Positions 35,638-60,109 of a stretch of DNA of 64,000 nt are shown here, one piece after another. This DNA is from an uncultured Bacteroidales bacterium. Its GTDB lineage: Bacteria > Bacteroidota > Bacteroidia > Bacteroidales > Bacteroidaceae. Each line of letters opens with the position of its first letter. Within the stretch, counting starts at the first letter, position 1. Where the stretch lies: contig CACWTU010000006.1 of NCBI GenBank assembly GCA_902763885.1, positions 186,001 to 250,000 on the forward strand, in the 5' to 3' direction. The notes under the pieces are model-generated. The model was not told where the DNA came from, searched no databases, and was given only the letters and a program-made list of their open reading frames with translations. The position numbers were made by a program, and so were the translations under genes.

Positions 35638-35712
35638 TACCTTTGTATCATCTGATACCAAGGGGTATTTCACAAGGCTATGGTGTCAGATGGAATACCC
35701 TTTGTTATTTAG
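35638..35712 (+). ncRNA. Pseudoknot RNA element, copy A (upstream of hicAB)
   Basis: TACCTTTG (35638-35645) is a consensus -7 box; the RNA would start near 35650. Stem 1 pairs 35651-35659 (TCTGATACC) with 35682-35690 (GGTGTCAGA). Stem 2 pairs 35660-35671 with 35692-35703, 12 continuous pairs including two wobbles. The order 1-2-1'-2' is an H-type pseudoknot with loop ACAAGGCTAT. Copy B at 60041-60109 has the same architecture with compatible base changes. As hicA has its own promoter (35812-35842), this may be a separate small RNA or a long leader. Confidence 0.65.
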
Positions 35713-35780
35713 TACCAATTAGTGTTTAACCTAAAAAATTGTTTGCCTATGGAAAAGATATAGTTCGGTTCTGTAAAAAG

Positions 35781-35842
35781 TATTAATTCTCGTACTTTTT
35801 CCAATAAATCTTTTGTGAGTAATATTAATTTTCGTACTTTTG
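35781..35842 (+). promoter_or_regulatory. hicAB promoter with paired operator repeats
   Basis: Two 19-bp direct repeats, TATTAATTCTCGTACTTTT (35781-35799) and the same with one change (35823-35841), are 42 bp apart. The second overlaps TACTTTTG (35835-35842), which with TTTG at 35812-35815 and a 19-bp spacer forms a full Bacteroidetes promoter. The predicted transcript starts about 8 nt before hicA. The repeats fit binding sites of the HicB antitoxin for autoregulation. Confidence 0.6.
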
Positions 35843-35854
35843 AAAACGCTAAAC

Positions 35855-36043
35855 ATGAAATACAGCGAACTTGAACGGCTTTTGAGAAAAGCTGGGTGCT
35901 ATGACACAGGCGATCAAATGGCTGGTCATCCAATTTGGTATAGCCCAATAACAGACAGAGAGTTTAAAATGAGTAATCATGGAAGTGAAGAGGTTGCTTC
36001 AGGCACACTGAACAAAATCTTGAAACAAGCCGGATTGAAATAA
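35855..36043 (+). CDS. hicA: HicA-type mRNA interferase toxin
   Basis: 62 aa from ATG 35855 (MKYSELERLLRKAGCYD). It has the small dsRBD-like fold pattern with the active histidine in AGHPIWYSP and the SNHGSEEVASGTLNKILKQAGL end. HicA degrades mRNA when free of HicB. It is 12 bp before the antitoxin gene. Confidence 0.8.
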   Translation: MKYSELERLLRKAGCYDTGDQMAGHPIWYSPITDREFKMSNHGSEEVASGTLNKILKQAGLK

Positions 36044-36055
36044 TAACAAATAAAG

Positions 36056-36469
36056 ATGTCTAATATGAGAAAAGTAAATGCAATAATAGAACGTGCAAGT
36101 GACGGTTCATACAGTATCTACAGTGATGCTGATGATCTGACATATCTGATAACCGGCACCGGCAAGACCGCTGCTGAAGCCAAGAAATGCTTTGAGGATG
36201 GCTATGAGGATATGCGCCGCCATTATCAAAAAATTGGCAAGCATTTCACCGAGGTAGAAATGGTGTACAAATATGATATGGCATCGTTCCTGTCATACTA
36301 TGCCAGTTCTTTCACATTGGCTGGTCTGTCGCGCATCACAGGCATAAATCAGGGACAGCTGTCCCATTACGTTACGGGCAGGAGCGTACCCACACGCAAA
36401 ACAGTGCAGAAGATGGAAAACGCCATCCACGCCTTTGCAGATGACCTTAAATCAGTGCAGTTCATCTAA
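36056..36469 (+). CDS. hicB: HicB-family antitoxin with HTH
   Basis: 137 aa. The N-terminal part (NAIIERASDGSYSIYSDADDLTYLITGTGKTAAEAKKCFEDGYEDM) is the HicB partial RNase-H-like fold. The C-terminal part (SSFTLAGLSRITGINQGQLSHYVTGRSVPTRKTVQKMENAI) is a Cro/C1-like HTH that would bind the repeats upstream of hicA. Neutralises HicA and represses the operon. Confidence 0.8.
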   Translation: MSNMRKVNAIIERASDGSYSIYSDADDLTYLITGTGKTAAEAKKCFEDGYEDMRRHYQKIGKHFTEVEMVYKYDMASFLSYYASSFTLAGLSRITGINQGQLSHYVTGRSVPTRKTVQKMENAIHAFADDLKSVQFI

Positions 36470-36480
36470 AAAAGAGTACC

Positions 36481-36587
36481 AGGGGCACAAAGGGGACGGT
36501 TCTTTTTGTGCCCCTAAAATAAGGCCATTGGGGACAGACCTTAATAAATCACAGGGGCACAAAAAGAACCGTCCCCTTTGTGCCCCT
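36481..36587. repeat. REP-like inverted pair (BIME-like), 35-bp arms
   Basis: The unit 36481-36515 (starting AGGGGCACAAAGGGGACGGT) is the exact reverse complement of 36553-36587; 37 bp lie between, including another partial GGGGACAGACC. It separates hicB from the convergent panB remnant. A transcript could form a 35-bp hairpin. Confidence 0.8.
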
Positions 36588-36595
36588 CTGCTCGC

Positions 36596-37442
36596 TTAGT
36601 ATTGTTCTTTCTCGTTGGGGAAGTCAGAGTTCTTGACATCCTCCACGTAGTGACCTACCGCGCTGGTGATGGTCTCGTAGAGGTTGGCGTAACGGCGCAG
36701 GAACCGGGGGCTGAAATCGTTGTTCATGCCCAGCATGTCGGCGCAGACAAGGACCTGACCGTCAACACCGCCGCCGGCACCGATGCCGATGATGGGTACG
36801 TTCACCTCTTTTGCTACGCGCTCGGCAAGCTTGGCGGGGATTTTCTCAAGTACGATTGAGAAGCAGCCTACCTCCTCCAGCTTGTGGGCATCGGAAATGA
36901 GTTTCTCAGCCTCGGCCTCCTCCTTGGCGCGTCTCAGCCTCGGCCTCCTCCTTGGCGCGTACGGCATATGTTCCGAACTTATTGATTGATTGGGGCGTCA
37001 GGCCCAGATGTCCCATAACAGGAATACCTATTTCTATTAAATGACGCACCTGAGGCAGGATCTCCTCGCCACCTTCAAGTTTAAGGGCATCGGCATGAGA
37101 GACCTTCATTATCTTGATGGCGTTGGTTACGGCCTCGGAATCGTTGATCTGATATGTACCGAACGGCATGTCAACCACCACGAGGGCGCGCTGAACGCCG
37201 CGTACTACTGACTTGGCGTGATATATCATCTGGTCAAGCGTGATAGGCAGAGTGGTCTGGTTTCCGGCCATAACGTTTGATGCCGAGTCACCCACCAGAA
37301 TAACGTCAATGCCGGCGCTATCAACCATCTTGGCCATAGTGTAATCATACGCTGTAAGCATTGCAATCTTCTCGCCACGCTGTTTCATCTCCCTGAGACG
37401 CTGTGTGGTCACTTTTCTCTTGTCCTCAGTAATATATCCCAT
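36596..37442 (-). pseudogene. panB: 3-methyl-2-oxobutanoate hydroxymethyltransferase, frameshifted by a 28-bp duplication
   Basis: The start ATG 37442 ([23 protein letters not shown]) and [36 protein letters not shown], then [27 protein letters not shown], are PanB (first step of pantothenate synthesis from ketoisovalerate). At 36905-36960 a 28-bp unit is repeated in tandem, which shifts the frame; the rest ([46 protein letters not shown]) is intact in another frame to the stop at 36596. Removing one unit restores a normal 273-aa protein. Either a recent mutation, possibly reversible, or an assembly artefact. Confidence 0.9.
36905..36960. repeat. 28-bp tandem duplication inside panB
   Basis: Units 36905-36932 and 36933-36960 are identical (each begins CTCAGCCTCGGCCTCCTCCT). 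28 is not a multiple of three, so panB is out of frame after the repeat. Confidence 0.95.
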
Positions 37443-37523
37443 AATGTCATATATGTAAATTGGACCGCGAAGATAATGCTTTTCTGAAAGGGATTTACTA
37501 TTTTTGGGTAGTTTATACTCCAA

Positions 37524-40500
37524 ATGGATAACAAATCGCACTTTACTGTGTATAAAGCGTCGGCCGGATCAGGTAAAACGTTCCGTCTGGCCGTACAATA
37601 TATCACCATGCTCATCCGCGAGCCTGAGAGCTACCGTCATATCCTGGCGGTAACTTTTACCAACAAGGCCACAGCTGAGATGAAACAGCGCATCCTGTCG
37701 CAGCTCTACGGCATCGGCCACAGCCTGCCCGGTTCCGCAAATTATTATGCTGAGGTCAAGAAGGCCGTTTCATACAACGAGCAGACCATACGCCACAACG
37801 CCCTGCTGGCACTTGACATGATACTCCAGGATTACGGCCGATTCCGCGTGGAGACCATTGACAGCTTCTTCCAGACCGTACTGCGCAGCCTGGCCCGTGA
37901 GCTGCACATAGGTGCGAACCTTTCCCTTGAGCTGGATACCGAACTGGTCATTGATGAGGCTGTAGATTCATTTCTGGCTGGCATAGAACAGGGCTCAAAT
38001 GATAAGCGTAACGTGATGGAGTTCGTTGAGAACAATATTGACAATGACAAGAACTGGTCAATTGACATCACGCTCAAGAAATTCGCCCAGGAGCTGTTCC
38101 GCGAGATATTCATGGAGCGTGGCGATGAACTCAGGAAGATTCTCTCTAAGCCCGATGCCATATCGGACTACAAGCAGAACCTAACCGCTGCACGTGACTC
38201 CGTCCTGCCCGCTTTAATTGAGAAGGTAAAAACCATAGGTGCAGAGATTGAATCAGCGCTTTCCAATGAAGGATTAGGCATTGAAGGCCTCTCCTCAAAC
38301 CCCGGCAAGGTGGTGGTAAAAATAATCAACGCCACAATCCTTGACTCAGACCTGGGCGCCACGTTCTCCAAATGCATCCAATATCCTGACAGTTTCTTCC
38401 GCAAGAAGGACCTTGAGGACAACCCGGGGTATTCAACTTTTGCTGAAGTGCAACTGGCACCACGCTTTGAACAGGTTGAGGAACTGCACGCTGAGTACAC
38501 CCGGCTAAAGAACACTTATGATGCCGCCCTCCAATACGTTCATGAGTTGAGCCTGCTGCTGGGCATACGTGCTGAGATTGACCGCCAAAGCCAGGAGCAG
38601 AGCCGTTTCATTCTGGCCGATACCCCCCAGCTGCTCAGCAAGTTATCAGGCAGTGACACATCATTCGTATATGAAAAGACCGGCAGTTTCATTGAGCACC
38701 TCATGATTGATGAGTTCCAGGACACCTCACGCCTGCAATGGGGCAACCTCTACCTGCTGCTGTGGGAGTGCCTGGCCAACGGCAAGGACTGCCTTGTGGT
38801 AGGTGATGTCAAGCAATCCATCTACCGCTGGCGCAACAGTGACTGGAACATTCTCAACTCCATCATGGAAGAGAAACTTGCCACCTATAGCCCGCAGGTG
38901 ATAGCTATGGAGAGCAATTTCCGCAGCCAACGCAACATCATCGATTTCAACAACAGGCTGTTCCCCAAGGCCGTTGAGATGCTCGCCATGAACTACAACG
39001 CCGAGACCGGCACTGACTACCCCGCCCTAAGCCAGGCATACAGCACCGTTGAGCAGCGTAGTTCCAAGGCCGATGACAAAGGCTACGTGTACATCCGCAT
39101 AGATACAAAAACCGATAAAAGCGCCGACTCTGCCGATAAGATTTTCTTACAGATTGAAGAGCAACTGGACCGTCTGACCGCCGCCGGAGTAAGACAGACA
39201 GACATAGCCATACTCTGCCGCAAAGGCCGCCATATAACCGATATCGCCGAGTGGTTTGCCGCAAACCGCCCGGACTACAAGATGATCTCAAGTGAGGCGT
39301 TCCAGTTAGGCTCATCGGCATCGGTAAGGATACTCATAAACGCACTTAAATGGCTCACTGACAGCACTGACCGCATAGCGCTGGCACAACTGGTATGGGA
39401 ACGCGAGTGCAACATCACCAAATCAGGAGAACCCTTTGACCGGCTCATGGCGCAAGGCCTTGAGAACTGCCTACCCGCCCCCTTCACAGGTAGCCTGGAG
39501 TCATTGAGACACCTGCCTTTATATGAACTCACTGAGAAGCTGTACACCATACTGGAACTTGACCGCATACCCGGGCAGGAGCAGTATGTGATGTCATTCT
39601 TTGACACGCTTTGCCAGTGGATGAGCCATAATCCCGGCGAGCCATCGGCCTTCCTGACTGAGTGGGATGAGAAACTCTGCACAAACTCCATCCCCGCGAC
39701 CGATGCCAACGGCATACGCCTGCTCACCATCCACAAGTCAAAAGGCCTGGAGTTCCACACCGTCATAGTGCCCTACTGCAACTGGAATGTCATTGAGTAC
39801 CAAAGCGGTTTCAAGGACGAGCGCATTTGGGTAAACCCTCAAACGGAACCGTTCAGCACCATACCCCTCTTGCCGGTAGGTTTCAGCCAGAAACTCAAGA
39901 ACTCTGACTTCAATGCAGAATACCGGCAGGAAGCAGGATTGCAGACCGTTGATAACCTCAACCTGCTGTACGTAGCCCTGACCCGTGCCGTAAGCAACCT
40001 CATTGTGCTCAGCTCAAAGACCAAGGGAACATCCATTGCAGACACTCTCATCTATGCCCTGTCATCAGAATTCGGTTGTCAGCCTGATGAGAAAGAATCT
40101 TACATTTATGAGAACGGGCAGATATTGCCTCATACAGAAAAGGCAAACGTCTCAGATGACAACCCGTTTGACTGCAAGCCCACCCCACAGGAACTGAGCC
40201 TGCACTCCTACCCCATAAACGCCCGCTTCCGCCAATCGGGAGAATCCACCCGATTCATCCATTCCACCGATGACCCCGATGACCGGCAGGAGGAGTACAT
40301 TGAGACCGGCCGGCTCATGCACAGCATCTTTGCCACCATCCGCACAGAGGCCGATATAGACCCGCAAATTGACAGCATGCTAAGCCAAGGTCTGATAGAG
40401 ACCACCAGCAAGGCCGATGATATCCGCAAGATGATACACCGCCACATTGAGGCATCGGGCGTACAATCCTGGTTTGACGGCTCCTACACCCTCTTTAACG

Positions 40501-40775
40501 AGACATCAATCATCTACCGTGACGGAGGCAAACTCCAGACCCGCCGCCCCGACCGCGTAATGATAAAGCCCGATGGCCGCGCCGTCATAGTGGATTTCAA
40601 GTTCGGCCGCGAGAAAGAAGAATACATGCATCAGGTACAGGAGTACATGGACCTGCTGCGCAAGATGGGCTACGCCCAGGTAGAGGGATACATTTGGTAC
40701 GTCTACAATGACACAATAGGGACAGTCCCCTTTGTGCCATTTTCCTCAAAACGACACAAAGGGGACTGTCCCTAA
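37524..40775 (+). CDS. addA: AddA-like helicase-nuclease (UvrD/RecB family)
   Basis: 1083 aa. Walker [10 protein letters not shown] (11-19), [16 protein letters not shown], Walker B region [13 protein letters not shown] (about 395), [40 protein letters not shown] and a C-terminal PD-(D/E)XK nuclease ([22 protein letters not shown], about 1005-1025). This is the Bacteroidales AddA/RecB-like subunit for double-strand break processing. Odd: from about residue 1061 ([12 protein letters not shown]...) the C terminus is encoded by a REP-like element, which also supplies the stop. Its AddB partner is not adjacent; an AddB-like gene begins at 63730. Confidence 0.9.
40717..40774. repeat. REP-like inverted pair over the addA stop
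   Basis: TAGGGACAGTCCCCTTTGTG (40717-40736) is the exact reverse complement of 40755-40774. It encodes the last residues and the stop of AddA. Confidence 0.8.
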
Positions 40776-40795
40776 TGCGCCAATTACAACTCATT

Positions 40796-41977
40796 ATGAA
40801 AGACTTTAATTATTACGCACCCACCGAGGTGGTTTTCGGTAAACAATCAGAAGAACAGGTAGCCCAGCTTGTACGCAAATACGGCGGCACCAAAGTACTG
40901 GTTCATTACGGCGGCAAGAGCGCCATCAAATCCGGCTTACTGGATAAGATTGAGCACCTGCTCAGTGAAAGTGGAATACAATATGTCACCCTGGGTGGTG
41001 TGGTACCAAACCCAAGGCTCTCAAAAGTGCATGAAGGCATTGAGCTATGCCGCAAGGAGAAGGTTGACTTTATCCTTGCCGTTGGTGGCGGCAGTGTGAT
41101 CGACTCATCCAAAGCCATCGCGTACGGTGTTCCCTATGACGGCGAGGTCTGGGACGTTTATCTGCGCAAATACACGCCCGTTACATCACTGCCGGTGGCA
41201 TCGGTCCTGACCATTCCCGCTGCCGGAAGCGAGATGAGTGACTCAAGCGTCATCACCAATGAGGACGGTGATGTCAAGATAGGCTACTCCAACAACCTGT
41301 GCCGCCCCAAGTTCGCCATCATGAACCCGGAGCGCACCTACACCCTGCCCGCATATCAGACGGCAGCCGGCATAACTGACATTATGATGCACACCATGGA
41401 ACGCTACTTCTCCCATGATGATGACATGAACATAACCGATGCCATTGCCGAGGGACTGCTCAAGACCATGATTGACGTCGCACCCCTGGTACTCAAGGAT
41501 CCGGAGAACTACCGCTATCGCGCCCAAGTAATGTGGGCAGGTTCACTGGCACACAATGACCTTACCGGCTGCGGCCGCATAGGAGACTGGGCAACACATC
41601 AGCTGGAGCATGAGCTGAGCGGAATGTTTGATGTCACCCATGGAGCCGGTCTGGCAGCCATATGGCCCAGCTGGGCACGCTACGTTATGGGTTGCGGCAT
41701 CCAGCGTTTTGTACGCTTTGCAGTAAACGTAATGGGCGTTGAGAATGACTTTACAGCCCCCGAGGCAACCGCCATCCGCGGCATTGAGGCAATGGAGCGT
41801 TTCTACCACTCAATAGGCATGCCCATCAACATACACGAACTCATAGGCCGTGATATAACCGATGCCCAGATCAAGGAGATGGTACGCAAGTGCAGCCACG
41901 ACTACACGATAACCCAAGGCCAGTTCAAGGAACTCACCCCCAATGACATGGCCGCAATCTACACCTTAGCCAAATGA
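40796..41977 (+). CDS. Iron-containing alcohol dehydrogenase (butanol-dehydrogenase type)
   Basis: 393 aa from ATG 40796 (MKDFNYYAPTEVVFGK). NAD(P)-binding ILAVGGGSVIDSSKAI; metal-binding region TDIMMHTMERYFS, GDWATHQLEHELSGMFDVTHGAGLA with His ligands. It matches the BdhA/YqhD class, mostly NADPH-dependent aldehyde reductases that remove reactive or fermentation aldehydes. Complete. The stop TGA forms the first bases of a REP-like element. Confidence 0.88.
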   Translation: MKDFNYYAPTEVVFGKQSEEQVAQLVRKYGGTKVLVHYGGKSAIKSGLLDKIEHLLSESGIQYVTLGGVVPNPRLSKVHEGIELCRKEKVDFILAVGGGSVIDSSKAIAYGVPYDGEVWDVYLRKYTPVTSLPVASVLTIPAAGSEMSDSSVITNEDGDVKIGYSNNLCRPKFAIMNPERTYTLPAYQTAAGITDIMMHTMERYFSHDDDMNITDAIAEGLLKTMIDVAPLVLKDPENYRYRAQVMWAGSLAHNDLTGCGRIGDWATHQLEHELSGMFDVTHGAGLAAIWPSWARYVMGCGIQRFVRFAVNVMGVENDFTAPEATAIRGIEAMERFYHSIGMPINIHELIGRDITDAQIKEMVRKCSHDYTITQGQFKELTPNDMAAIYTLAK

Positions 41978-42004
41978 CGCAAAGGGGTCGTTTAACAATG
42001 CGTC
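41975..42004. repeat. REP-like repeat, GACGC type
   Basis: GACGCAAAGGGGTCGTTTAA to ATGCGTC, closely matching the unit at 20072-20100. It begins at the stop codon of the alcohol dehydrogenase. Confidence 0.7.
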
Positions 42005-42040
42005 AGTTTTTCTGTTTTTGTTTCTATTAAATAAAGAACT

Positions 42041-42868
42041 ATGGGAATGAGGAGATTTGTTGTGATTGCTGTAATGGCGTGCCTTCCGTGCATATCGGTC
42101 CAATGCAAACGCGCCAAGAGTTATGCGCCCCAAGGATACCAGTTGGTTTGGCAGGATGAGTTCAATGAGGGCACCGAGCCCGATGCCACCAAGTGGACAC
42201 ACGTGGTAATGCGTCAAGGTATGGTCAACCATGAACTCCAAAACTACGTGAACCACGTCACTCCCGCCGGCACCCCCGTAACCGAGGTCAAGGACGGAAC
42301 CCTGCGCATAAACTGCTTCAAGGAGGACGGCAAAGTCTATTCCGGCCGCCTGAACGGAAACGCCCGCACCGGCTGGCAGAACGGCTACTTTGAGGCCCGC
42401 ATCAAACTCCCCAAGGGCAAAGGCACCTGGCCCGCCTTCTGGATGATGCCCGCCGCCAACCGCATGCCCAACAACGGCTGGCCCCGTTGCGGTGAGATAG
42501 ACATCATGGAAGAGGTAGGCTTTGTACCCAACGAGGTCTCATCGTCCATCCACACCCAGGCCTACAACCACACCAACAAGACCCACAAGACCAAGGCCGT
42601 CACCATAAAGAAAGCCGAGGGCGATTTCCACATCTACTCCCTCCTATGGACCGATGACGAAATCAGAACCTACGTCGACGGCAAGGAACTGCTCCACCTG
42701 GAGAAATCCGTCCTGGGCGACACCCACGACCAATGGCCCTTCCACTACCCCTTCCACATAATCCTGAACCTGGCTTGGGGCGGTGACTGGGGCGGTCAGG
42801 AAGGCGTCGATGAGAGCGCCCTACCCGTCACCATGGAAGTAGACTACGTCCGCGTCTACCAAAAATGA
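42041..42868 (+). CDS. GH16 family glycoside hydrolase (laminarinase-like), secreted
   Basis: 275 aa. Signal peptide MGMRRFVVIAVMACLPCISVQC, where the Cys could be lipidated. Catalytic signature GEIDIMEEVG (about 150; E-x-D-x-x-E) with WPAFWMMP before it and NLAWGGDWGG near the end. GH16 enzymes cut beta-1,3 or beta-1,3-1,4 glucans and related polymers; specificity cannot be read here. It is not in a SusCD locus in this window. A REP-like element starts at the stop codon. Confidence 0.9.
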   Translation: MGMRRFVVIAVMACLPCISVQCKRAKSYAPQGYQLVWQDEFNEGTEPDATKWTHVVMRQGMVNHELQNYVNHVTPAGTPVTEVKDGTLRINCFKEDGKVYSGRLNGNARTGWQNGYFEARIKLPKGKGTWPAFWMMPAANRMPNNGWPRCGEIDIMEEVGFVPNEVSSSIHTQAYNHTNKTHKTKAVTIKKAEGDFHIYSLLWTDDEIRTYVDGKELLHLEKSVLGDTHDQWPFHYPFHIILNLAWGGDWGGQEGVDESALPVTMEVDYVRVYQK

Positions 42869-42893
42869 TACCATTGGGGACAGACCCCTTTGG
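42867..42893. repeat. REP-like repeat
   Basis: ACCATTGGGGACAGACCCC and TTTGGT form an imperfect palindrome next to the GH16 stop. It is a variant of the GGGGACAGTCCC family. Confidence 0.55.
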
Positions 42894-42936
42894 TACATTT
42901 TTTGAGTATATTCGCAAAAAAACAACCTTTTCCATT

Positions 42937-43347
42937 ATGAAGAAGATCTGGAAGATAGTATTGATTACTGTTGCGGCGGCGGGAATTCTTGCCGCCACAT
43001 GCCCCGGCAAGCAGCGTCACACTGACGCGATAGTCGGGTTTATGAGCAAAGAGCTGCATAAGCAGGCCGACAACCTGGTCAAAGATTATGAGAAACAGCA
43101 TAACAACAGTATGCCCGATAAAGGCAAACAGGTGTTATCAAAGCTGGAGGAATCACTGATAGATCAGATCAGGCCTGCCGTCAATATAGTCCTTGTGGTA
43201 AAGAACTATGGCCTTTTCAGCATAGGATACTTTGAGGATGATACCCATGGAACCACCAGGGTAACTACAGGTATCCTGGGAATGATTATTCCCAGCAAGA
43301 AAGCCCTCAAGACCGATTACAATCTGAACATAAACGGTAGCAGATAA
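42937..43347 (+). CDS. Small exported protein, DUF4359-like
   Basis: 136 aa from ATG 42937 (MKKIWKIVLITVAAAGILAATCPGKQRHTDAI). One N-terminal hydrophobic segment, possibly a signal anchor, then CPGKQRHTDAIVGFMSKELHKQAD and VVKNYGLFSIGYFED...TTGILGMIIPS. The NP/CP-x-x-x-H/Y start, the FSIG strand and the final glycine-rich part resemble DUF4359. Function unknown. The longer start at 42865 would lie in the REP element. Confidence 0.6.
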   Translation: MKKIWKIVLITVAAAGILAATCPGKQRHTDAIVGFMSKELHKQADNLVKDYEKQHNNSMPDKGKQVLSKLEESLIDQIRPAVNIVLVVKNYGLFSIGYFEDDTHGTTRVTTGILGMIIPSKKALKTDYNLNINGSR

Positions 43348-43348
43348 T

Positions 43349-43603: not shown

Positions 43604-43635
43604 ATCTTAAATATAGTCCCCAATGGTATTTTTTA

Positions 43636-43643
43636 TACCTTTG
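43636..43643 (+). promoter_or_regulatory. -7 box for the giant surface protein
   Basis: TACCTTTG fits TAnnTTTG, 26 bp before ATG 43669. The -33 region lacks a clean TTTG. This position argues against the in-frame ATG at 43600. Confidence 0.45.
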
Positions 43644-43668
43644 CACAATTTTAAAATGGTCCTTAATC

Positions 43669-51860: not shown

Positions 51861-52556
51861 ATGACACCTTATGAAGATAATAACAATCATTTATTTAGTA
51901 TGATTGATCAAATAATAGAACTTGAGAAGAAAAGTGTAAAACAAAACACATCATTACTTCATGAGATGATAGATAGCAGAGAACGTGACATCCAAACTTT
52001 AGACAGTGTGGCTGACCGATTATTAGACACCATGAACGGCTTAACTGGAGATGGAGAAAACGAATACAGACAGTACCTTGATTATATTGAAACATTTAAT
52101 CCCACAGAAGCAAAAGAACGAAGGGATGACCTTGAATACGATCTGGGATATAAAACCCACGTACTATACGCAGCAGCAATATTATGTCGTAAAGAACTGG
52201 AAGGCAAACAATCAAAAGACGGCCAACCATCTTTTGATGTCATTATGAAGAACTATAATCCAAAAGTCTATGATATAAAGAAAAAGACAGCCTCATTCTT
52301 ATTCTTCATCCATTTAGGAACCGGACGTTCTACTGACGAACTGATTAAGATGCTTCAATCCATTACGGAATCAACAGACTATGTTCTTTCAAATGTTGAT
52401 GAATTTGAAGATTTAATGCACTTTCCCAGAGAAACCTACCATCCGCTTCGCGAAGATGAATGGAAACACATCCAATACATTGTTGAATACAACATAGAAT
52501 TATACAAAACACATCTTGAGCAGAACAAAGATTTGATAAACAATGTATTTGAGTAG
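51861..52556 (+). CDS. Hypothetical protein, 231 aa
   Basis: From ATG 51861 (MTPYEDNNNHLF); 14 codons upstream from 51819 are also open. Helical, charged and without recognised domain (LEKKSVKQNTSLLHEMIDSRERDIQTLDSVADRLLD, then a segment ending FLFFIHLGTGRSTDELIKMLQSI). No signal peptide. AT-rich, directly beside the IS element and the nuclease-helicase gene, so probably part of the acquired stretch. Confidence 0.6.
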   Translation: MTPYEDNNNHLFSMIDQIIELEKKSVKQNTSLLHEMIDSRERDIQTLDSVADRLLDTMNGLTGDGENEYRQYLDYIETFNPTEAKERRDDLEYDLGYKTHVLYAAAILCRKELEGKQSKDGQPSFDVIMKNYNPKVYDIKKKTASFLFFIHLGTGRSTDELIKMLQSITESTDYVLSNVDEFEDLMHFPRETYHPLREDEWKHIQYIVEYNIELYKTHLEQNKDLINNVFE

Positions 52557-52597
52557 AGTTCCTCGGTATATGGGAATCATTACATAATTCATCTTTT

Positions 52598-52621
52598 AAC
52601 CCCCTCAAATTCGAGGGGTTT
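52598..52621. terminator. Bidirectional hairpin between convergent genes
   Basis: AACCCCCTC-AAATT-CGAGGGGTT forms a strong stem in the gap between the 52556 stop and the convergent gene ending at 52806. T-runs are short in both directions. The rest of this 249-bp gap holds only a trace of GGGACAGGTTCC. Confidence 0.45.
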
Positions 52622-52805
52622 AGAAAAGAAGCAGGTCTAAGCCAAAGGAGACGATTCCGTTTGGCATCATTGTGTGTAGAGGAGCTATCCCTAATATGTT
52701 AAGTTTACTATTGCGGCCTCAGTGCAGTCGCTATTTACGGAAAACACAAAAGGGACAGGTTCCAAATGTCTGTAAGGTGTTTGTTTGAATAAAAACAACA
52801 CCTCC

Positions 52806-55157
52806 CTAAATAGTCCCAAGGAATTCTCCTATCACTCTGAAATCATCAGCTTCATCTTCATTCAGGATAATAGGTTTGTAATCTGGATTCAAAGGTTTAA
52901 GTATTATTGATGAATGATACCACAAGCCGTCATCAGAGAAAGACTTATCGCTTGTGTATTGTTTGATTGCATAACTGCCGCCATACTCAGGATCGTAAGA
53001 TGTGTGGTTCTGGACAAGCAATATCTTTCCCTCACGACTACCGGCAGGATTTGCCCTAAAAACGCATAAGTCTCCGTCGTGTATTTTGGGTTCCATAGAA
53101 TTACCCGATGCCTTAACGACAAACATATTTCGATTCAACCGGCCCATTCCTTCCACTTGTACCCAACCGGATTCCTCAACCTCTTCGCCTTCACCAAAAT
53201 AACCGCAGGCGGCTTTTAATGAGTAAACAGGCAGAAAGTCAATGTATTTTACATCATCATTCACAGCCGGCTCAATACGAGTCGCAACCTCTTCATGCAC
53301 AACAGTTGACATCAACTGTCGGAAATGTTCCGCAAGAGCTGCATCGCAGCAATAGACATAGCACCCCTTCATGCCACGGGTCATCAGCGTGCGATATGTA
53401 TTCTTGATGATTTGGTCAGCGTCCTGCATAGCTTTGTCGGGATTCTTCTTAAACAACTGCTTGAACCCAGCCAGAGACTTGTCAGTACCGGAACGTTTGA
53501 ATCCGTCCGTAACGATATGCCCATCCCTAAAGGTCATATCAGGACCGATAATCACGCCCACATAGTCCAGTTCCAAACCTTGACAAGTGTGTATGCAGCC
53601 AATCTGCTCAATTGACTCACTGCCTATCAGCCAAGGTTCTCCACCTCGGAAATTCCATTTCTTACGGAATGAAAACTCGGGGAAACAGATATCATATGCA
53701 TTCTTATCCTGCTTGCTCACCCAATCCCAGCAATAGCCGGCAACCACCCTGCTCTTATTGTTCACCTCATTCTTGCGGTGAATCTCATTAAACAACACAA
53801 CAGGCGAATCAAAAACGCGGAAGTCAAAATCCTCATTTGTCAGAATAATGTTTGCAGTGTCACGGATCTGGATGGCATTGTCAATCCAACTTAAATAGCC
53901 GTCAGAACCGTTGCAACGGAACTGTGAACTCAGATGCTCCAGATGCACATCGGCCCCAAGTTCTTGGGCGCAGTCCTTTATTGACTGCACGCTACCTATG
54001 TCTTTCATGTGGATACGCTGATAGTCATCAACAAAAAAGACAGTAAAACGAGCGGTATTGATTATCTCCTTTATCTGGTTCTCACCGCGATTTGCATATA
54101 ACCCACTCTTGAGGTTGAGTCTGTGAGCCTCGTCCACAACAAGAGTTCCGATAGAATCTTTTGGAGCCTCGGTAAACTGGCCGCTTCCCACAAATAAATT
54201 GTTGATATATGTCTTTTTAAATGATCCCGACAACTTTACGCTATATACATCACGTGGCGCCTGATTCTTGGTAACATATTGAGTCGCTATCCCTTCATTG
54301 GTAAGTTTAACCAATAGGTTCACTGCCAAAACGCTCTTACCCGTTCCGGGACCACCCTCAACGATAAGCACCTGTTTCTTGCCGTCCTTAGCCTTGTTTG
54401 CCAGATAGACCGCAGTTTCAAATACCACCTTCTGGTCATCAATCATTTTGAACTCTTCGTTGCCCTTAAGCATGGAATCCAAAGAATCGGCCAATTGCTT
54501 GGACGGACATATGCGGCCATGATCAATCTTCCAGATTACATCATCCCGTGATGACTGCTTGATATGATGAAGAATAAAGTCTTGAAGGCGCGCAGCATCG
54601 TTTCTGAGAAATACTGGAGCCAATGCGGTATAATCGGCATATTCAGCACTATCTATAATGCCATCCGGCGTATAATTGTGCAAATAAGCGCATGGCGAAA
54701 TAACAACCCCCTCATCCTGAACAGTCAGGTTGTAGTTAGATAGCATATATGCATAAGACCACGCCTGATAAGATGGATGTACGGTCTCTGCCGGCCCACC
54801 TTGAAAACGGGTAACCACTACGCCTGGCTTGGATGTAGATTGAGCCGATTCCCACTGTTTGAGTTCGACAACAACTAAATGCGAGTGATTCTCACCATCA
54901 AGGCCTGACACTATAAAGTCAACGCGCTTGGATGTAAGAGGAATCTGATATTCAATGGCTATACCTACGTCATCTGGCAAAGAAGATGTGTTAACCACCC
55001 GCTCCATATATTGCATGGAGTTTTTCCACGAGCGGACCTCATTGGGTGATGTGTGTCGGCCTAAATGCTCATAAAATGCATTATCTATGTTATCGGCTAT
55101 GACTCCGTTGAAGACATCTTCAACAAACTGCCTCTTGGTAGCTTTGTAGATAATCAT
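52806..55157 (-). CDS. PD-(D/E)XK nuclease - DUF2075 helicase - S24 peptidase-like fusion
   Basis: 783 aa in three parts. Residues about 65-130: RVDFIVSG...LVVVELKQWESAQ, a nuclease-like D...ExK core. Residues about 245-640: SF1 (Schlafen/DUF2075) helicase with VEGGPGTGKSVLAV, TLVVDEAHRL, DDYQRI, SSQFRCNG, HTCQGLELDYVGVIIG and YRTLMTRGMKGCYVY. Residues about 670-780: LexA/UmuD-like S24 domain with Ser in VKASGNSMEPKIHDGD and Lys in SYAIKQY. Overlaps the MazG-like gene by 4 bp. The combination suggests a DNA-damage or phage-sensing defence protein with an autoproteolytic switch; this is inference. Confidence 0.8.
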   Translation of the reverse strand: MIIYKATKRQFVEDVFNGVIADNIDNAFYEHLGRHTSPNEVRSWKNSMQYMERVVNTSSLPDDVGIAIEYQIPLTSKRVDFIVSGLDGENHSHLVVVELKQWESAQSTSKPGVVVTRFQGGPAETVHPSYQAWSYAYMLSNYNLTVQDEGVVISPCAYLHNYTPDGIIDSAEYADYTALAPVFLRNDAARLQDFILHHIKQSSRDDVIWKIDHGRICPSKQLADSLDSMLKGNEEFKMIDDQKVVFETAVYLANKAKDGKKQVLIVEGGPGTGKSVLAVNLLVKLTNEGIATQYVTKNQAPRDVYSVKLSGSFKKTYINNLFVGSGQFTEAPKDSIGTLVVDEAHRLNLKSGLYANRGENQIKEIINTARFTVFFVDDYQRIHMKDIGSVQSIKDCAQELGADVHLEHLSSQFRCNGSDGYLSWIDNAIQIRDTANIILTNEDFDFRVFDSPVVLFNEIHRKNEVNNKSRVVAGYCWDWVSKQDKNAYDICFPEFSFRKKWNFRGGEPWLIGSESIEQIGCIHTCQGLELDYVGVIIGPDMTFRDGHIVTDGFKRSGTDKSLAGFKQLFKKNPDKAMQDADQIIKNTYRTLMTRGMKGCYVYCCDAALAEHFRQLMSTVVHEEVATRIEPAVNDDVKYIDFLPVYSLKAACGYFGEGEEVEESGWVQVEGMGRLNRNMFVVKASGNSMEPKIHDGDLCVFRANPAGSREGKILLVQNHTSYDPEYGGSYAIKQYTSDKSFSDDGLWYHSSIILKPLNPDYKPIILNEDEADDFRVIGEFLGTI

Positions 55158-55483
55158 AACTCATTGTATTTTTTTGCGCTACCCTTGGCTTTATCTACCG
55201 GATATTTCTCAGCATTTCTTTTGATCTTATCCAGCATAATCTGCTTGATGTCCAGATTATAGCGGTCCGCCATTTGGAATGCATAGTTCAGCACATCAGC
55301 CAGTTCCTCCTTAATCTTGTCTTTCGATGCTGACGCGGCATCTTTCCATAGGAATGCCTCAAGAAGTTCGGCTGACTCAACAGAAAGAGCAACAGCCAAG
55401 TCCTTTCCATTATGAAACTGGTCCCAATCACGTTCCTGATTGAATTTCCTCAATTCAGCCAGAATCTCATCAATATCACTCAT
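55154..55483 (-). CDS. MazG-like nucleotide pyrophosphohydrolase
   Basis: 109 aa. The all-alpha NTP-PPase helices are visible: FHNGKDLAVALSVESAELLEAFLWK (ExxAE metal site) and IKEELADVLNYAFQMADRYNLDIKQIMLDKIKRNAEKYPV (ExxD). It hydrolyses NTP or dNTPs to NMP. Translationally coupled (4-bp overlap) to the nuclease-helicase fusion, so nucleotide depletion or clean-up may accompany its action. Confidence 0.85.
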   Translation of the reverse strand: MSDIDEILAELRKFNQERDWDQFHNGKDLAVALSVESAELLEAFLWKDAASASKDKIKEELADVLNYAFQMADRYNLDIKQIMLDKIKRNAEKYPVDKAKGSAKKYNEL

Positions 55484-55755
55484 ATCACTCGGTTAGCTTT
55501 ACAGTTTCAAAAATAATGAAAAATATTAAAAGTGAAATGTACAATTTGGACCTGTCCTAAATTGCACCAACAAACAGCATAATAAATAACTAATAATCAT
55601 ATAATTATAGTAAATAACTATTTCAAAAGTCTTAACCGAACTTAACAAATTTCCTTGCAATCTTACCAGATAAACGCAGTACGTTTGCATCGGAGTTAGC
55701 GCTCTGATTATTAAATATTTATATAAATAATTGTTCCATTAAAATCAGAAATGTT

Positions 55756-56622
55756 ATGATTCAGGATTATGAAACAAATTTGGTGTATATGGCAAACGGT
55801 CTGAAGCATTATCGGCCACTGTTTACCAACCTTGTCAGTGCGCTTGAGAGAGAAGGTATCGCGTTCCGTTTTCTGCCCAGGACGGAATCTGATAAGCATG
55901 TTTGGGTGCGGGACTATATGCCTATTCAGATTGAGAAAGACAAGTTCTTAAGGTACTGGTATGAGCCCGATTATCTGTGGGGGTTTGAATCTTACATCCC
56001 CCAGTACCGCGCCATAGACAAGGAACTGAGCCTGGATTGTAAAAGTACCGACATCATTCTGGACGGCGGAAATGTTATTAAGTGCGGCGACAAGGTGATT
56101 ATGACCGATAAGATCCTGAAGGAAAACCGGTACCGCCACAAGAAAAAACTGATAAGCAAACTGGAGAACTTGCTTGAGGCCGAAATAGTACTTATTCCAT
56201 GGGACCGTGAAGAGGAGTTTGGTCACGCCGACGGTATGGTACGCCACATAGAGGGCAACCGCGTGCTCATGAACAATTACGTCAAATTTGACCCTCTGTT
56301 CAGGGATAAACTCATTAGTGCTTTAATCCCCCACTTTAAGGTTGAGGAGTTCTTCTACTATACTCCCCGCCACAGCCAATACTCCTGGGCCTACATAAAC
56401 TTTCTGCAGGTAGGTTCAACCATTTTTGTCCCGGGGCTTGGGATTGACGAGGACCTGCTGGCAGTAGAAAAGATTACAGCTATATACCCCAACTGCAAGG
56501 TCATTAAGATAGACGGATGCCAGGATCTGGTCCGGGATGGCGGGGCTTTGAATTGCGTAACGTGGAATATTAAGAGTGATTTAACTGAGAAAAGAAATAA
56601 AGTTTTACCAAACACTATTTGA
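55756..56622 (+). CDS. Agmatine deiminase / PAD-like amidinohydrolase
   Basis: 288 aa, shorter than typical agmatine deiminase (about 350-370). Signature blocks: TESDKHVWVRDYMPIQ, DIILDGGNVIKCGDKVIMTDKI, EEFGHADGMVRHI (catalytic His, about 158) and RDGGALNCVTWN (catalytic Cys, about 267). Family members turn agmatine into carbamoylputrescine or citrullinate peptide arginine. No signal peptide, so free agmatine, arginine derivatives or a cytoplasmic partner protein are possible substrates. The next gene starts 2 bp after its stop. Confidence 0.8.
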   Translation: MIQDYETNLVYMANGLKHYRPLFTNLVSALEREGIAFRFLPRTESDKHVWVRDYMPIQIEKDKFLRYWYEPDYLWGFESYIPQYRAIDKELSLDCKSTDIILDGGNVIKCGDKVIMTDKILKENRYRHKKKLISKLENLLEAEIVLIPWDREEEFGHADGMVRHIEGNRVLMNNYVKFDPLFRDKLISALIPHFKVEEFFYYTPRHSQYSWAYINFLQVGSTIFVPGLGIDEDLLAVEKITAIYPNCKVIKIDGCQDLVRDGGALNCVTWNIKSDLTEKRNKVLPNTI

Positions 56623-56624
56623 TT

Positions 56625-57341
56625 ATGTTTACACCGAAATTTATTAAAAACATATCCTTTAACGGAGAATTATTACTGGCTACAGGAAGGAGTGGAGAAG
56701 GAGCCCCTGTATTTGTTAGACAAGGAGATCTGGACAGTTCATATACCATATACTGTCTGATGATGTTATTGATACTGCATAAGAATTTGGACCGGAATGA
56801 TTTGACTGATAAAGAACGGGCTGATGAGGATGATTTTGTATACAGCATCCAACGTATGTTCTTAGAGAAATTAAATGGATGTTGTAGGGGCGGGCATAAA
56901 ATGAAAGAAATATCCAATAAACTGAACATCTGTTTTAATGCAAAACTATCTGAGACTTATACCATAAGTCGTGGAAAACATAATTCCGTATTCCGCCCAG
57001 GATTGCATAAAATAATAAAGTATTATTTAGATAATGGAAAACCTGTTATGATTGGTTTTAAAAAGGAAATAGGTGGTGTTCATGCAGTAGTAGCTATAGG
57101 ATATATAAAGGAAGGAAAAACAATGCGTTTGTTCTGCCTGGATCCAGAACACCCGCTTGGATATATGCAAGTTTGGAACAATGTTATAGACCTGAAATAT
57201 TACCAACTATGTGATGATGATTACACTGATTACAATTATTATACAGGAACACAGATTATTGTGGATGAGATTCTGATTATTAATGACCCGCCACAAGAGG
57301 ACTTACCATTTAATGAGGAGAGCAATAAGATTCCGTTCTAA
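56625..57341 (+). CDS. Papain-fold (C39-like) protein, possibly inactive
   Basis: 238 aa from ATG 56625 (MFTPKFIKN). FVRQGDLDSSYTIYCLMMLLIL resembles the QG....C start of papain-like peptidases with Ser39 at the position of the nucleophilic Cys; GKPVMIGFKKEIGGVHAVVAIGYIKEGKTMRLFCLDPE supplies the His strand and the Asn/Asp region. No signal peptide. The tight coupling to the deiminase gene suggests that they act together. Fold assignment is tentative and activity is doubtful. Confidence 0.5.
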   Translation: MFTPKFIKNISFNGELLLATGRSGEGAPVFVRQGDLDSSYTIYCLMMLLILHKNLDRNDLTDKERADEDDFVYSIQRMFLEKLNGCCRGGHKMKEISNKLNICFNAKLSETYTISRGKHNSVFRPGLHKIIKYYLDNGKPVMIGFKKEIGGVHAVVAIGYIKEGKTMRLFCLDPEHPLGYMQVWNNVIDLKYYQLCDDDYTDYNYYTGTQIIVDEILIINDPPQEDLPFNEESNKIPF

Positions 57342-57425
57342 ATACACAAAGGAAGAAGATTATTTGAAGTGTTGCTATTATAGAACCGGTTAAGTTGATT
57401 ACATTTACATTCTAAAAAAAGGATT

Positions 57426-58052
57426 ATGAGTAAGCTAATAAAAGTATTACTGGATTTTGACTTACGCAAAGCCACATCTAAGACAATTCAAGAAGAGTTT
57501 GAGAAGATTGCTGATGTTGCCTTGAACGAAGGGTATTTTCTTGTTAAGCTTGATAAACGAAGCAAAAAGATATATCCGGTAGAGATTGAGTTCTACATAT
57601 ATGGTGAAAAGGAAAGCGATCAGGATCAAGAATGGATGTGCGATTACAATATGTATCATAGGCACTATGATAAGATTGACAGGACAAATCCAAAAAGTGA
57701 TAAGAAAAACTATGTTGAGTATTTCCCTAAGGCTGGATCATTGTTCCCTCATAAATCTGGTGTAGATGTTACTTTTGAGGATAAAGACAATGAATACAGG
57801 GCTTCATTCTTAATAAAAAAATATCGGATTGATGACCCCAAAGGTGATATCCAGAAAAAAGCAACTTACCTAAGTGAAGAAATGTTTGGATATGCTCCAT
57901 TTGGTAGCGACGGGCTCCATCTAGATATTAAATGGGTTGATGACCCTACCGTAAGGACCGGAATTAAAGAATGGAAAACACGTATTAATTTCCATAAGAA
58001 AAACAAAGAACTGGACGACAAAGAATGGCGCTGCATTAAAGCTGATTGGTAA
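57426..58052 (+). CDS. Hypothetical protein, 208 aa
   Basis: Not firmly recognised. The middle part (YPVEIEFYIYGE, MYHRHYDKIDRTNP, KAGSLFPHKSGVDVTFEDKDNEYRASFLIKKYRI) vaguely resembles the beta-core of alkyladenine DNA glycosylases (ExE strand, H, GxDxTF, ILIR), but the catalytic residues cannot be placed with confidence. Rich in Lys and Asp; AT-rich; no signal peptide. Confidence 0.5.
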   Translation: MSKLIKVLLDFDLRKATSKTIQEEFEKIADVALNEGYFLVKLDKRSKKIYPVEIEFYIYGEKESDQDQEWMCDYNMYHRHYDKIDRTNPKSDKKNYVEYFPKAGSLFPHKSGVDVTFEDKDNEYRASFLIKKYRIDDPKGDIQKKATYLSEEMFGYAPFGSDGLHLDIKWVDDPTVRTGIKEWKTRINFHKKNKELDDKEWRCIKADW

Positions 58053-58056
58053 TGTG

Positions 58057-58093
58057 CAATTGGGGTCTGCCCCCTTTTGTCCTATTTTGTGCT
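58057..58093. repeat. REP-like repeat, degenerate
   Basis: GCAATTGGGGTCTGCCCCC followed by TTTTGTCCTATTTTGTGC, a variant of the GGGGACAGTCCC family, 5 bp behind the stop of the 57426 gene. Confidence 0.5.
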
Positions 58094-58148
58094 TATCGGC
58101 CTAAATGTGTATATTCTCAAAAAAGAGAATTATATAATAGACTAAAAT

Positions 58149-58694
58149 ATGATTGACCAGATTATTGAATTCAACAAGGAGTTCGTGGCCCGCAAGGGTT
58201 ACGAGAAGTATCTTACCGACAAGTATCCCGACAAAAAACTTGCTGTGCTGTCTTGCATGGATACCAGGCTGACAGAGTTGCTGCCGGCTGCGCTGGGTCT
58301 TAAGAACGGTGATGCCAAGATTATAAAGAATGCCGGAGGTTTGGTGATATCGGCCTTTGACTCTGCTATGCGTAGTCTGATTGTGGCTATCTATGAGTTG
58401 GGCGTACAGGAGATTATGGTGGTGGCCCACTCCCACTGCGGAGCCTGCCATATGAGCTATGACCATTTCCATCATCAGATGCTGGAGCGCGGGGTTACGG
58501 ATGAGACACTGTCCACAATACGTAAGTGCGGCATTGACCTGAATCAGTGGCTGGAGGGATTCAAGGACACTCCAACATCGGTCCGAAATACTGTGCATAC
58601 CATCAAAACTCATCCGCTGGTTCCAAAGGATATTACGGTGCGCGGATTCATCATTGACTCTGAGACTGGGGCGCTGGAGGAGATTACAGAATAA
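58149..58694 (+). CDS. Beta-carbonic anhydrase
   Basis: 181 aa. Zinc ligands and dyad: VLSCMDTRLTELL (Cys, Asp, Arg; about 35-40), IIKNAGGLV and AHSHCGACHM (His and Cys; about 94-100). Short beta-CA of the type common in gut Bacteroidales. It interconverts CO2 and bicarbonate in the cytoplasm. Confidence 0.9.
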   Translation: MIDQIIEFNKEFVARKGYEKYLTDKYPDKKLAVLSCMDTRLTELLPAALGLKNGDAKIIKNAGGLVISAFDSAMRSLIVAIYELGVQEIMVVAHSHCGACHMSYDHFHHQMLERGVTDETLSTIRKCGIDLNQWLEGFKDTPTSVRNTVHTIKTHPLVPKDITVRGFIIDSETGALEEITE

Positions 58695-58723
58695 AATGGA
58701 GCAACCTACATCCGTCATTGCAT

Positions 58724-58999
58724 ATGGCTAAGAAGAAAAACAAACTCGAACTTGGGATAAGAGGAATACTAGGCATAGCGTGTGTTGCCATCTGGCTTAT
58801 ATGTGCATATGGGCAGATTAAAGAAGGCGTGGGTATTGCCCATCAAAACCAAGTTCCTTATAGGTTTGTGGACTCCTTGGTAAGTATTTGTGAATATATG
58901 TTGTTGCTATTTATAGTATACATTGTTATCCTTAGTTTTTTCGGCATGTTTTTTCCTCCTGATAGAAACAAAAAAGGAAACATGGAAGAATACCGGTGA
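58724..58999 (+). CDS. Small membrane protein with two spans
   Basis: 91 aa from ATG 58724 (MAKKKNKLELGIRGILG). Two hydrophobic segments (IRGILGIACVAIWLICAYG and YMLLLFIVYIVILSFFGMFF) with charged ends. No recognised family. It begins 29 bp after the carbonic anhydrase stop, so it may be cotranscribed. Confidence 0.6.
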   Translation: MAKKKNKLELGIRGILGIACVAIWLICAYGQIKEGVGIAHQNQVPYRFVDSLVSICEYMLLLFIVYIVILSFFGMFFPPDRNKKGNMEEYR

Positions 59000-59067
59000 G
59001 TATTAAAATTGCTCATCAGTTTTTTCCGGCGGTGCTTGGAAACATCGCGCATCGGCCCACATCGGTT

Positions 59068-59157
59068 AGTGCTTGCCAAAGGGATTGAGGGTGCGGAACT
59101 CTCCGGTGGTGCCGTCACAGTGTCGGAAGGTGGGCGGATTGGTGGAGATTGAACTCA
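59068..59157 (-). pseudogene. Short coding remnant (30 codons)
   Basis: MSSISTNPPTFRHCDGTTGE followed by FRTLNPFGKH and a stop. It has biased protein-like composition but is too short for a domain. It lies directly behind the FISUMP gene ending at 59160. It may be the C-terminal end of a lost gene. Confidence 0.25.
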
Positions 59158-59159
59158 TT

Positions 59160-59927
59160 CTATGGGCAGACGGGACGGACAGAAAGACCGTAGGGACGTG
59201 GGTTTTTAACAATATAGTGGTTTTTCCTATCAAAGCGTAGTGCCCACACCTGATTCGGGTGATTTGTGTCCAGCGAACTGGACCAGTAGTCAGTATGAGT
59301 ACTCGTATGGAGGGTAGTTCCCTGACGCCACCCAGCTCCAGGAAGGAAAATGTATTGGCTCGGGTCCTTTCTGCTGGTAAACTTCATACCGTAACCATTA
59401 TTATCAGTTCTAATATACTCATAATCACAACTGTCTAGCAGTTCCTCAAACTCTGCTTGTGTAGGCATACGCCAGTTTCCACCCCACCTATAGTGGGCTA
59501 CATCATCAACTGGAAGAAGAGTGGTATCATTGTCAGTGTAATCTCCATCGCCTTCACTGCTTTTATTACAGTACTTGATTAGTTTGTTATTTGAGCTGTT
59601 TATGTACTTGTAGGAGGACCCATCGTACCCAGATGATTTGCCTTCCTTCCAGTGTGTCTGCGGATCTTCCCGTGCATAGCCGGGTTCGTAGTATGTTGTA
59701 GTATCGCCCCAGGCATAGTAGTCACCATATTCCTCCGGCGTATTTGCGCCCACATTACATGTAGCCCATTTCACGCTAAGGCCCAAGTCAACTGCAAAGT
59801 CACCGTTGGGTTGAATTGCTGGAGCGGCAACGGGTGCACTGTCATTATCATCATCCTTATCACAACAACAAGACTGCATGCCCATCAAAAGGGCTGCAAC
59901 CGGAAGTAAGTAGATTATACGCTTCAT
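59160..59927 (-). CDS. FISUMP-like lipoprotein, copy A
   Basis: 255 aa from ATG 59927. Lipoprotein signal MKRIIYLLPVAALLMGMQSC with following Cys. Mature part: DFAVDLGLSVKWATCNVGANTPEEYGDYYAWGDT, NWRMPTQAEFEELLDSCDY, YIFLPGAG, YWSSSLD and a final GLSVRPVCP. Surface protein family of unknown role. It is a near-duplicate of the gene at 61380, including the promoter and upstream REP. The -7 box is TATTTTTG (minus strand, 59969-59962); a TTTG 21 bp upstream is part of the REP element. Confidence 0.75.
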   Translation of the reverse strand: MKRIIYLLPVAALLMGMQSCCCDKDDDNDSAPVAAPAIQPNGDFAVDLGLSVKWATCNVGANTPEEYGDYYAWGDTTTYYEPGYAREDPQTHWKEGKSSGYDGSSYKYINSSNNKLIKYCNKSSEGDGDYTDNDTTLLPVDDVAHYRWGGNWRMPTQAEFEELLDSCDYEYIRTDNNGYGMKFTSRKDPSQYIFLPGAGWRQGTTLHTSTHTDYWSSSLDTNHPNQVWALRFDRKNHYIVKNPRPYGLSVRPVCP

Positions 59928-59986
59928 AAGAATCAGGATTAAACTATTGATTTTAACTGCACAAAAATAGAAAACTTTTTCAAAAC

Positions 59987-60015
59987 GGCACAAAGGGGAC
60001 TGTCCCTACTGTGCC
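59987..60015. repeat. REP-like repeat upstream of FISUMP copy A
   Basis: GGCACAAAGGGGACTGTCCC then TACTGTGCC; near-perfect palindrome. It sits at the -33 region of the FISUMP-A promoter on the minus strand. Confidence 0.75.
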
Positions 60016-60040
60016 ATTTTGCTGTTTAAGAATTCTTGCG

Positions 60041-60109
60041 TATCTTCGCGGTATCTGATACCAGGGGGTATTCCACAAGGCATACAGGTGTCAGGTTGGG
60101 ATGCCCCTT
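60041..60109 (+). ncRNA. Pseudoknot RNA element, copy B (upstream of rhuM remnant)
   Basis: TATCTTCG (60041-60048) is a -7-like box, and stem 1 begins five bases later, exactly as in copy A. Stem 1: 60054-60062 with 60087-60095. Stem 2: 60063-60074 with 60098-60109 (12 pairs, three wobbles). Loop ACAAGGCATACA. Against copy A, five stem-2 positions differ and all still pair. The GTTGTTTGCAG after the stem also matches copy A (GTTATTTAG). ATG of the rhuM-like frame follows 45 nt later. Confidence 0.65.

Follow-up and report, generated by a model that had tools for sequence, protein, structure and literature searches.

A promoter-linked leader RNA with two covarying stems before toxin-antitoxin and defence genes of Bacteroidales, a candidate transcription attenuator

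Two copies of a leader element and the pairing of their stems

The window analysed here, 64,000 nucleotides from an uncultured Bacteroidales bacterium (contig CACWTU010000006.1, positions 186,001 to 250,000), contains two copies of a structured leader element on its forward strand, copy A upstream of a hicA toxin gene with a hicB-like partner and copy B upstream of a rhuM-family gene. A sequence-only reading of this DNA had described each copy as a -7 promoter box followed, after a gap of 5 nt, by a 9-bp stem 1 (S1) and a 12-bp stem 2 (S2) in pseudoknot order, and both copies were found at the places given there, with all of these parts as claimed.

In copy A, the box TACCTTTG (35638-35645) was followed by the 5' strand of S1, TCTGATACC (35651-35659), the 5' strand of S2, AAGGGGTATTTC (35660-35671), which would form a terminator arm, the loop L2 (35672-35681), which contains ACAAGGC and is predicted to be a possible second partner for the 3' strand of S1, that 3' strand itself, GGTGTCAGA (35682-35690), the 3' strand of S2, GGAATACCCTTT (35692-35703), and the U-rich tail GTTATTT (35704-35710). 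Copy B had the box TATCTTCG (60041-60048), one base off TAnnTTTG, the same S1 5' strand TCTGATACC (60054-60062), the S2 5' strand AGGGGGTATTCC (60063-60074), loop L2 (60075-60086), the S1 3' strand GGTGTCAGG (60087-60095), the S2 3' strand GGGATGCCCCTT (60098-60109) and the U-rich tail GTTGTTTG (60110-60117); GGCAT (60079-60083) in its loop is predicted to be able to pair with GTGTC (60088-60092), forming a helix that we call S3. Boxes and tails were assigned from the sequence, the stem strands from sequence and covariation, the putative switching strand (the 3' strand of S1) in both copies also from predicted folds, and the box of copy A also from the box and 5-nt spacing found in 40 of 40 copies.

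A core pattern of 30 bases, allowing up to three mismatches, had an expectation of 0.00 in shuffled windows. The pseudoknot-order parse scored 48.4 for copy A and 48.0 for copy B, and their dinucleotide shuffles, 4000 in all, scored 38.4 at best and never 40 or more; among the 68 TAnnTT(T/C)G boxes of the window, a score of at least 40 was found at copies A and B only, the next best being 21.0.

The box read TAnnTTTG in 36 and TAnnTTCG in four of the 40 copies of the main alignment (A5), the gap between box and S1 was 5 nt in all 40, and in 26 of them a TTG began 25 to 21 bases upstream of the box. Box type, spacing and upstream TTG agree with the Bacteroides fragilis promoter consensus, TAnnTTTG at -7 and TTTG near -33, as cited in PMC7366714. 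The position of the box suggests that transcription would start at or beside the first base of S1. The element lies between promoter and start codon, as an attenuator does, the open reading frame (ORF) starting about 100 nt downstream in most copies and farther away in the case of hicA and of the hotspot operons described below.

The five positions at which S2 differs between copies A and B had been taken as covariation, and pairing was indeed kept at all five; however, all of them were one-sided (A-U to G-U, for example), so that the window alone gives evidence of compatible change but none of compensation. Nor was the matter decided by a first alignment of 17 close copies, which had two-sided changes in none of the S1 pairs and in two S2 pairs, a result equalled by 138 of 500 shuffles. 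The sequence-only reading had made its proposal depend on covariation of both stems in further homologues, and this was found in A5, where two-sided changes occurred in four of the nine pairs of S1 and in eight of the 12 pairs of S2; these 12 of 21 pairs were equalled in one of 500 shuffles. Paired cells made up 93.4% of the 837 in A5, a share reached in none of 500 shuffles, and sliding the 3' partners by one to three columns lowered the pairing to 38-50%. A5 excludes L215 and L219 (which gave no parse), L220, L221, the short copies described below and copies found later; its rows L231 and L233 were kept although shifted by one column in S2, and the count that follows was also made without both.

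G-U cells numbered 134 and A-C cells 16, an excess that speaks for sense RNA, rather than DNA or the antisense strand, as the molecule that folds. That both stems covary on the sense strand is a direct observation, as is the spacing to the promoter box, and the two covarying helices stand in the crossing order a-b-a'-b' of an H-type pseudoknot. Three types of S1 were seen, type I with UCUGAUACC/GGUGUCAG(A/G), type II with (A/G)CUAAUACC/GGUGUUAG(U/C) (L217, L275, L295, L397 and L398) and type III with UCUAGUACC/GGUGCUAGA (L213 and L214).

Genes behind the leader and its distribution

The element was listed at 57 places, all but one (L250) in a single Bacteroidales genus, and a downstream gene could be assigned at 56 places, L222 being at a contig end. 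Grouping by similarity to representatives annotated with Pfam and PADLOC, singletons representing themselves, placed these 56 genes in 14 groups, nearly all of toxin-antitoxin, candidate-defence or mobile-nuclease type: ORF6N (17 genes), Rpn/PDDEXK_2 (12), DUF1016 (7), HicA (6), RhuM (4), HigB/Gp49 (2) and single genes of AbiEi, PD-T4-5-like, LPD3-like, ResIII, DrmD-like, HTH_3, BrxA and Bro-N type. The LPD3-like match was under the Pfam cut-off, the PDC labels of PADLOC denote no more than candidates, the Rpn and HicA proteins that were scanned with PADLOC had no match, and the genes at L217 and L400 were picked by hand, the brxA gene of L400 beginning about 1 kb away with an ORF of the opposite strand in between. 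This placement, which is observed directly, greatly strengthens the earlier suggestion that the element precedes toxin- or defence-like genes. In the reverse direction, 17 of the 20 ORF6N places of the genus that scored at least 90 bits carried the element (14 full, two short and one degenerate) and three did not.

Related leaders stood before three unrelated operons at one hotspot. The upstream DNA common to these loci was 95% identical over 572 bases between L213 and L214, 100% over 95 bases between L213 and L400, and 77% over 400 bases between L214 and L400. Behind it lay a BREX operon with BrxA, BrxB, BrxC, an Eco57I-type methylase in the place of PglX, PglZ and BrxL (L400/L466), genes for a DrmD-like helicase, a methylase and ResIII (L214/L468), and genes for a ResIII helicase, a methylase and NOV_C (L213/L467). 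ORFs of 227 and 239 aa were also observed downstream, in the same order, in both L466 and L467. Flanks were likewise shared around unrelated single genes (L201, L202, L208 and L236), and by eye the likeness between unrelated genes spans the box, the 5' untranslated region and the first codons.

The genome of the window itself had two further copies (C11:46051-46127 and C11:10540-10616). A covariance model built from 17 copies (R1) had matches at E<=0.1 in 19 of the 37 genus genomes, and one built from 40 copies (R2) had matches at E<=0.05 in 23 of the 37, most of these genomes being incomplete assemblies; the R2 matches in G002 and G030 were weak, and by eye that in G002 was accepted as a degenerate copy and that in G030 was rejected. 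Matches on the strand opposite an element were disregarded, and L221 (without a box), the second match in L204, L401 and L403 were dropped from the list by eye. L401 (G030:C17) is not a family member; a greA-like gene stands there behind a promoter box and a hairpin that has a run of U, and this leader is perhaps another attenuator.

Among 393 genomes of the order, strong matches came only from the genome of the window, the other 392 (five of them of the same family) giving weak ones or none: R1 had weak matches in 16 of the 392 (best E 1.3e-4) and R2 in 23 (best E 2.1e-5). Both stems together were seen in none of the 15 R1 loci (L178-L192) and the nine of 19 R2 loci that were inspected outside the genus; two further ones of the 19 coincide with L179 and L188. 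No order-level match outside the own genome thus appears convincing, though absence is not proven by them. An exact pattern run over 84,980 species genomes found 22 loci, largely in the same records as the genus genomes. Every one of these records is titled as Bacteroidales that are uncultured or assembled from metagenomes, and those titles that name a source name the rumen or other gut material. A specific pattern found no stretch in viral_contigs, and a 15-base viral pattern, which gave at least 120 stretches, was too loose and was dropped.

The leaders of ORF6N and Rpn genes were also scanned, at 64 loci. A usable ORF was lacking at 16 of them, and the 48 that were scored comprised 44 outside the genus and four genus controls. 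The pseudoknot-order parse reached the cut-off in two of the 44 (L408 and L461), neither with S1 beside a box, which is a weak negative given that the parse recovered two of the four controls (L397 and L460, which are one place) and missed the other two (L398 and L225), we think because the script chose another ORF. On present evidence the element seems confined to one genus, save for L250, whose record is titled Paludibacteraceae.

Proposed attenuation and the alternatives

We propose, with a probability of roughly 0.6, that the leader is a transcription attenuator that serves as a common front of toxin-antitoxin and defence genes. RNA polymerase would start on the first base of S1 or directly beside it, and the first 45 nt or so would fold as the S1 hairpin, which would act as an antiterminator. 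The 3' arm of S2, once it emerges, would draw the RNA into the longer terminator hairpin S2, which would compete with S1 and be lengthened by S3, that is, by the 3' strand of S1 re-paired with GGCAU in the S2 loop; the two states would be mutually exclusive, and S2 with its U-rich tail would halt transcription ahead of the gene. Anything that stabilises or removes S1, or that alters the speed of elongation, would then set the amount of message that reaches the gene.

Predicted folds were consistent with such an exchange. They were made for 44 copies, 40 parsed and four added by hand (without L215, L219-L221, L400, L402 and the short copies), using a program that cannot score pseudoknots. The nascent RNA, cut at the end of S1, was predicted to fold S1 in 41 of the 44, whereas in the full-length RNA S2 was formed and the 3' strand of S1 was paired to L2 in all 44, S1 being kept in none. 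The median energies of the single stems over 41 copies were -11.1 kcal/mol for S1 and -16.3 kcal/mol for S2. S2 with its tail GTT(A/G)TTT resembles ordinary Bacteroidales terminators, and among the weak R1 matches outside the genus, 13 of the 15 readable ones were by eye short-loop terminator hairpins of the same sequence type as S2, such as CAAAGGGCATCC-loop-GGATGCCCTTTGTTT and CAAAGGGTATCC-loop-GGATACCCTTTGTTATT (L182). The loop of S2, of roughly 20-25 nt, holds the 3' strand of S1. In L215 (before a HigB-like gene) and L220 (before a helix-turn-helix gene, and with a poor S1/S2 parse) another U-tailed hairpin overlaps by eye the 3' strand of S1, which fits the exchange.

Several observations weigh against the attenuator. 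The copies are kin, hence the cell counts given above overstate the number of independent events. The S2 loop is far longer than normal terminator loops, and S2 was not listed by a terminator scan of copy B, a scan that allows only loops of 3-8. S3 (GGCAU/GUGUC) was paired in 87.1% of 194 cells, but of 500 shuffles 302 equalled its covariation score and 50 its paired percentage, and against shuffled loops it was better at p<=0.05 in no more than four of 44 copies (mean z -0.92); we therefore rate the S3 pairing as likely, and the S1/S2 exchange as what we infer from the predicted folds. L215 and L219 yielded no S1/S2 parse. Four short copies (L216, L218, L404 and the second in L200, at 3330) are without S2 and the 3' strand of S1 and keep the box, the S1 5' strand and the gene (ORF6N or DUF1016), and such short leaders are candidate constitutive versions. 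What looks like a second promoter box lies downstream in some toxin-antitoxin copies, copy A included, and the genes assigned at the hotspot start 368, 473 and about 1000 nt away. Finally, counting all places in the genus, the element was present at 17 of 28 for ORF6N, at only seven of 36 for DUF1016 (two of the seven short) and at four of 29 for RhuM.

The covariation bears out the earlier description of a promoter-proximal RNA with two stems in pseudoknot order; the standing pseudoknot that this order implied is not supported as stated, given loops mostly of 0-2 nt, a terminator-like S2 and a predicted second partner for the 3' strand of S1. Such an H-type pseudoknot at the 5' end of the message, which would bind a ligand or protein or shield the message in the manner of a riboswitch or stability element, would nevertheless account for the covariation of S1 and S2 in that order and for the conservation of order and short connecting loops across the three sub-types. 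We consider it unlikely, because S1 was never kept in the predicted full-length folds (made by a program blind to pseudoknots), loops mostly of 0-2 nt beside stems of 9 and 12 bp would be sterically awkward, and the sequence of L2 differs between the sub-types, unlike a ligand pocket. A small RNA gene that neutralises the product of the next gene, in the style of type III toxin-antitoxin systems and with the terminator setting the ratio of RNA to protein, is an improbable reading, even though the order of promoter, structured RNA, terminator and gene fits type III systems, and structured RNA with a terminator upstream of a toxin gene is what the leader shares with ToxI and with avcID, reportedly a type III system active against phage. 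Type III RNA antitoxins belong to one toxin family and often form tandem repeats, and the leader does not conform to this: it precedes 14 gene groups, among them HicAB and HigBA loci, whose partners are proteins, and a BREX operon of several genes, so that a specific pair of RNA and protein is unlikely, and there is one unit per gene, the model matches being single at each gene and the two of L202 having each its own gene (no separate search for repeats was made).

Sharing of flanks up- and downstream of non-homologous genes (L201, L202, L208 and L236), of leader and first codons across unrelated genes and of one site by swapped operons, together with REP-like palindromes at several edges, could also mean that the element serves mainly as a recombination site, folding as DNA at the left end of a mobile cassette whose cargo is the gene. 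A strand bias in the tolerance of G-U (134 against 16) and the exact promoter spacing fit a transcribed RNA instead, and the cassettes showed no 3' end that all of them share; as the principal function we regard this as very improbable, while as a property of the units it is compatible with the attenuator explanation and does not exclude it.

Attenuators are leaders with a terminator and an antiterminator that are usually tied to one pathway or operon. The leader described here resembles them in its predicted early hairpin and later U-tailed hairpin competing for a strand, and differs in standing as one class before 14 gene groups and in having no known ligand or leader peptide. LoaP-type leaders and STAXI are, together with attenuators, the closest kinds, and to our knowledge none of them fronts many unrelated defence loci. 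The earlier statement that no named family with this fold was known is borne out for Rfam 15: a scan of the window at the gathering threshold gave only a tRNA, and at E up to 10 the two copies had 10 and four matches, all below gathering scores and of unrelated kinds. No paper that we recognised as describing the element was found in the open-access literature, most subscription papers lying outside it.

LoaP leaders, reported near secondary-metabolite operons, combine a small RNA hairpin with an intrinsic terminator (PMC12691694), and are thus alike in placing hairpin and terminator ahead of cargo genes and unlike in that the present leader lies by defence and toxin-antitoxin genes. The STAXI motif is also an RNA in pseudoknot order, near genes that handle DNA or counter restriction, and it is repeated two or usually three times (PMC2864571), whereas the present element is single, attached to a promoter box and without an Rfam match. 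The topAI leader, whose upstream ORF toiL exerts translation-coupled, Rho-dependent control (PMC12121999), likewise puts a toxin-antitoxin transcript under the control of a 5' leader; the copies studied here have no upstream ORF in common, some of them, including copy B, having an ATG in an arm of S2.

More tentatively, and with considerable doubt, one class of RNA switch might be the common trigger of the anti-phage and toxin-antitoxin arsenal of the genus. The cue, phage attack or something else that acts on transcription elongation or on a trans-acting factor, would shift the balance between S1 and S2 and jointly turn on BREX, DrmD-type, AbiE, HicAB, ORF6N and other genes, defence cargo being swapped behind a resident leader. 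How scattered bacterial defence genes are regulated is largely an open question, and a leader with covarying stems in front of many unrelated defence and toxin-antitoxin loci would imply that an RNA can join defence genes in a regulon. It would also predict a common signal, and could serve as a sequence tag in the search for new defence genes of these genomes.

Genes and edges at the two window loci

All genes described here are on the forward strand. Behind copy A, a four-codon ORF (MEKI and a stop, 35749-35763, from the sequence) stands at the place where other copies have the start codon, and this stub is a possible relic of a replaced gene. The hicA toxin gene follows at 35855-36043, assigned by BLASTP grouping with L223 and L228 (Pfam HicA_toxin), and at 36056-36469 lies a gene that by its position is the hicB-like partner, with a weak HTH_3 match under the Pfam cut-off. 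A second box, TACTTTTG, was found at 35835-35842, directly before hicA, and because of this box and the four-codon ORF in between, copy A is probably not the sole promoter of hicAB. Two similar TATTAATTnTCGTACTTTT stretches also precede this box of hicA (region 35780-35855).

The rhuM-family gene behind copy B (60155-60957) is split into two overlapping frames, 60155-60430 and 60373-60957, and an unbroken relative of it was found behind the same leader in another genome (L225). Where the 3' arm of S2 reads GGGATGCCC, an ATG inside it opens a short ORF, of 10 codons in copy B (60101-60133) and of other lengths in many relatives; this ORF is missing in copies with GGAATACCC.

REP-like palindromes with a core of GGGGAC-GTCCCC type and varying outer arms (GGCACAAAG, GTACAATTG and TGACGCAAAG) were observed at 35600-35625, 36480-36590, 59985-60017 and 60950-60982, at several edges of the leader-gene units, and they occur in relatives too.

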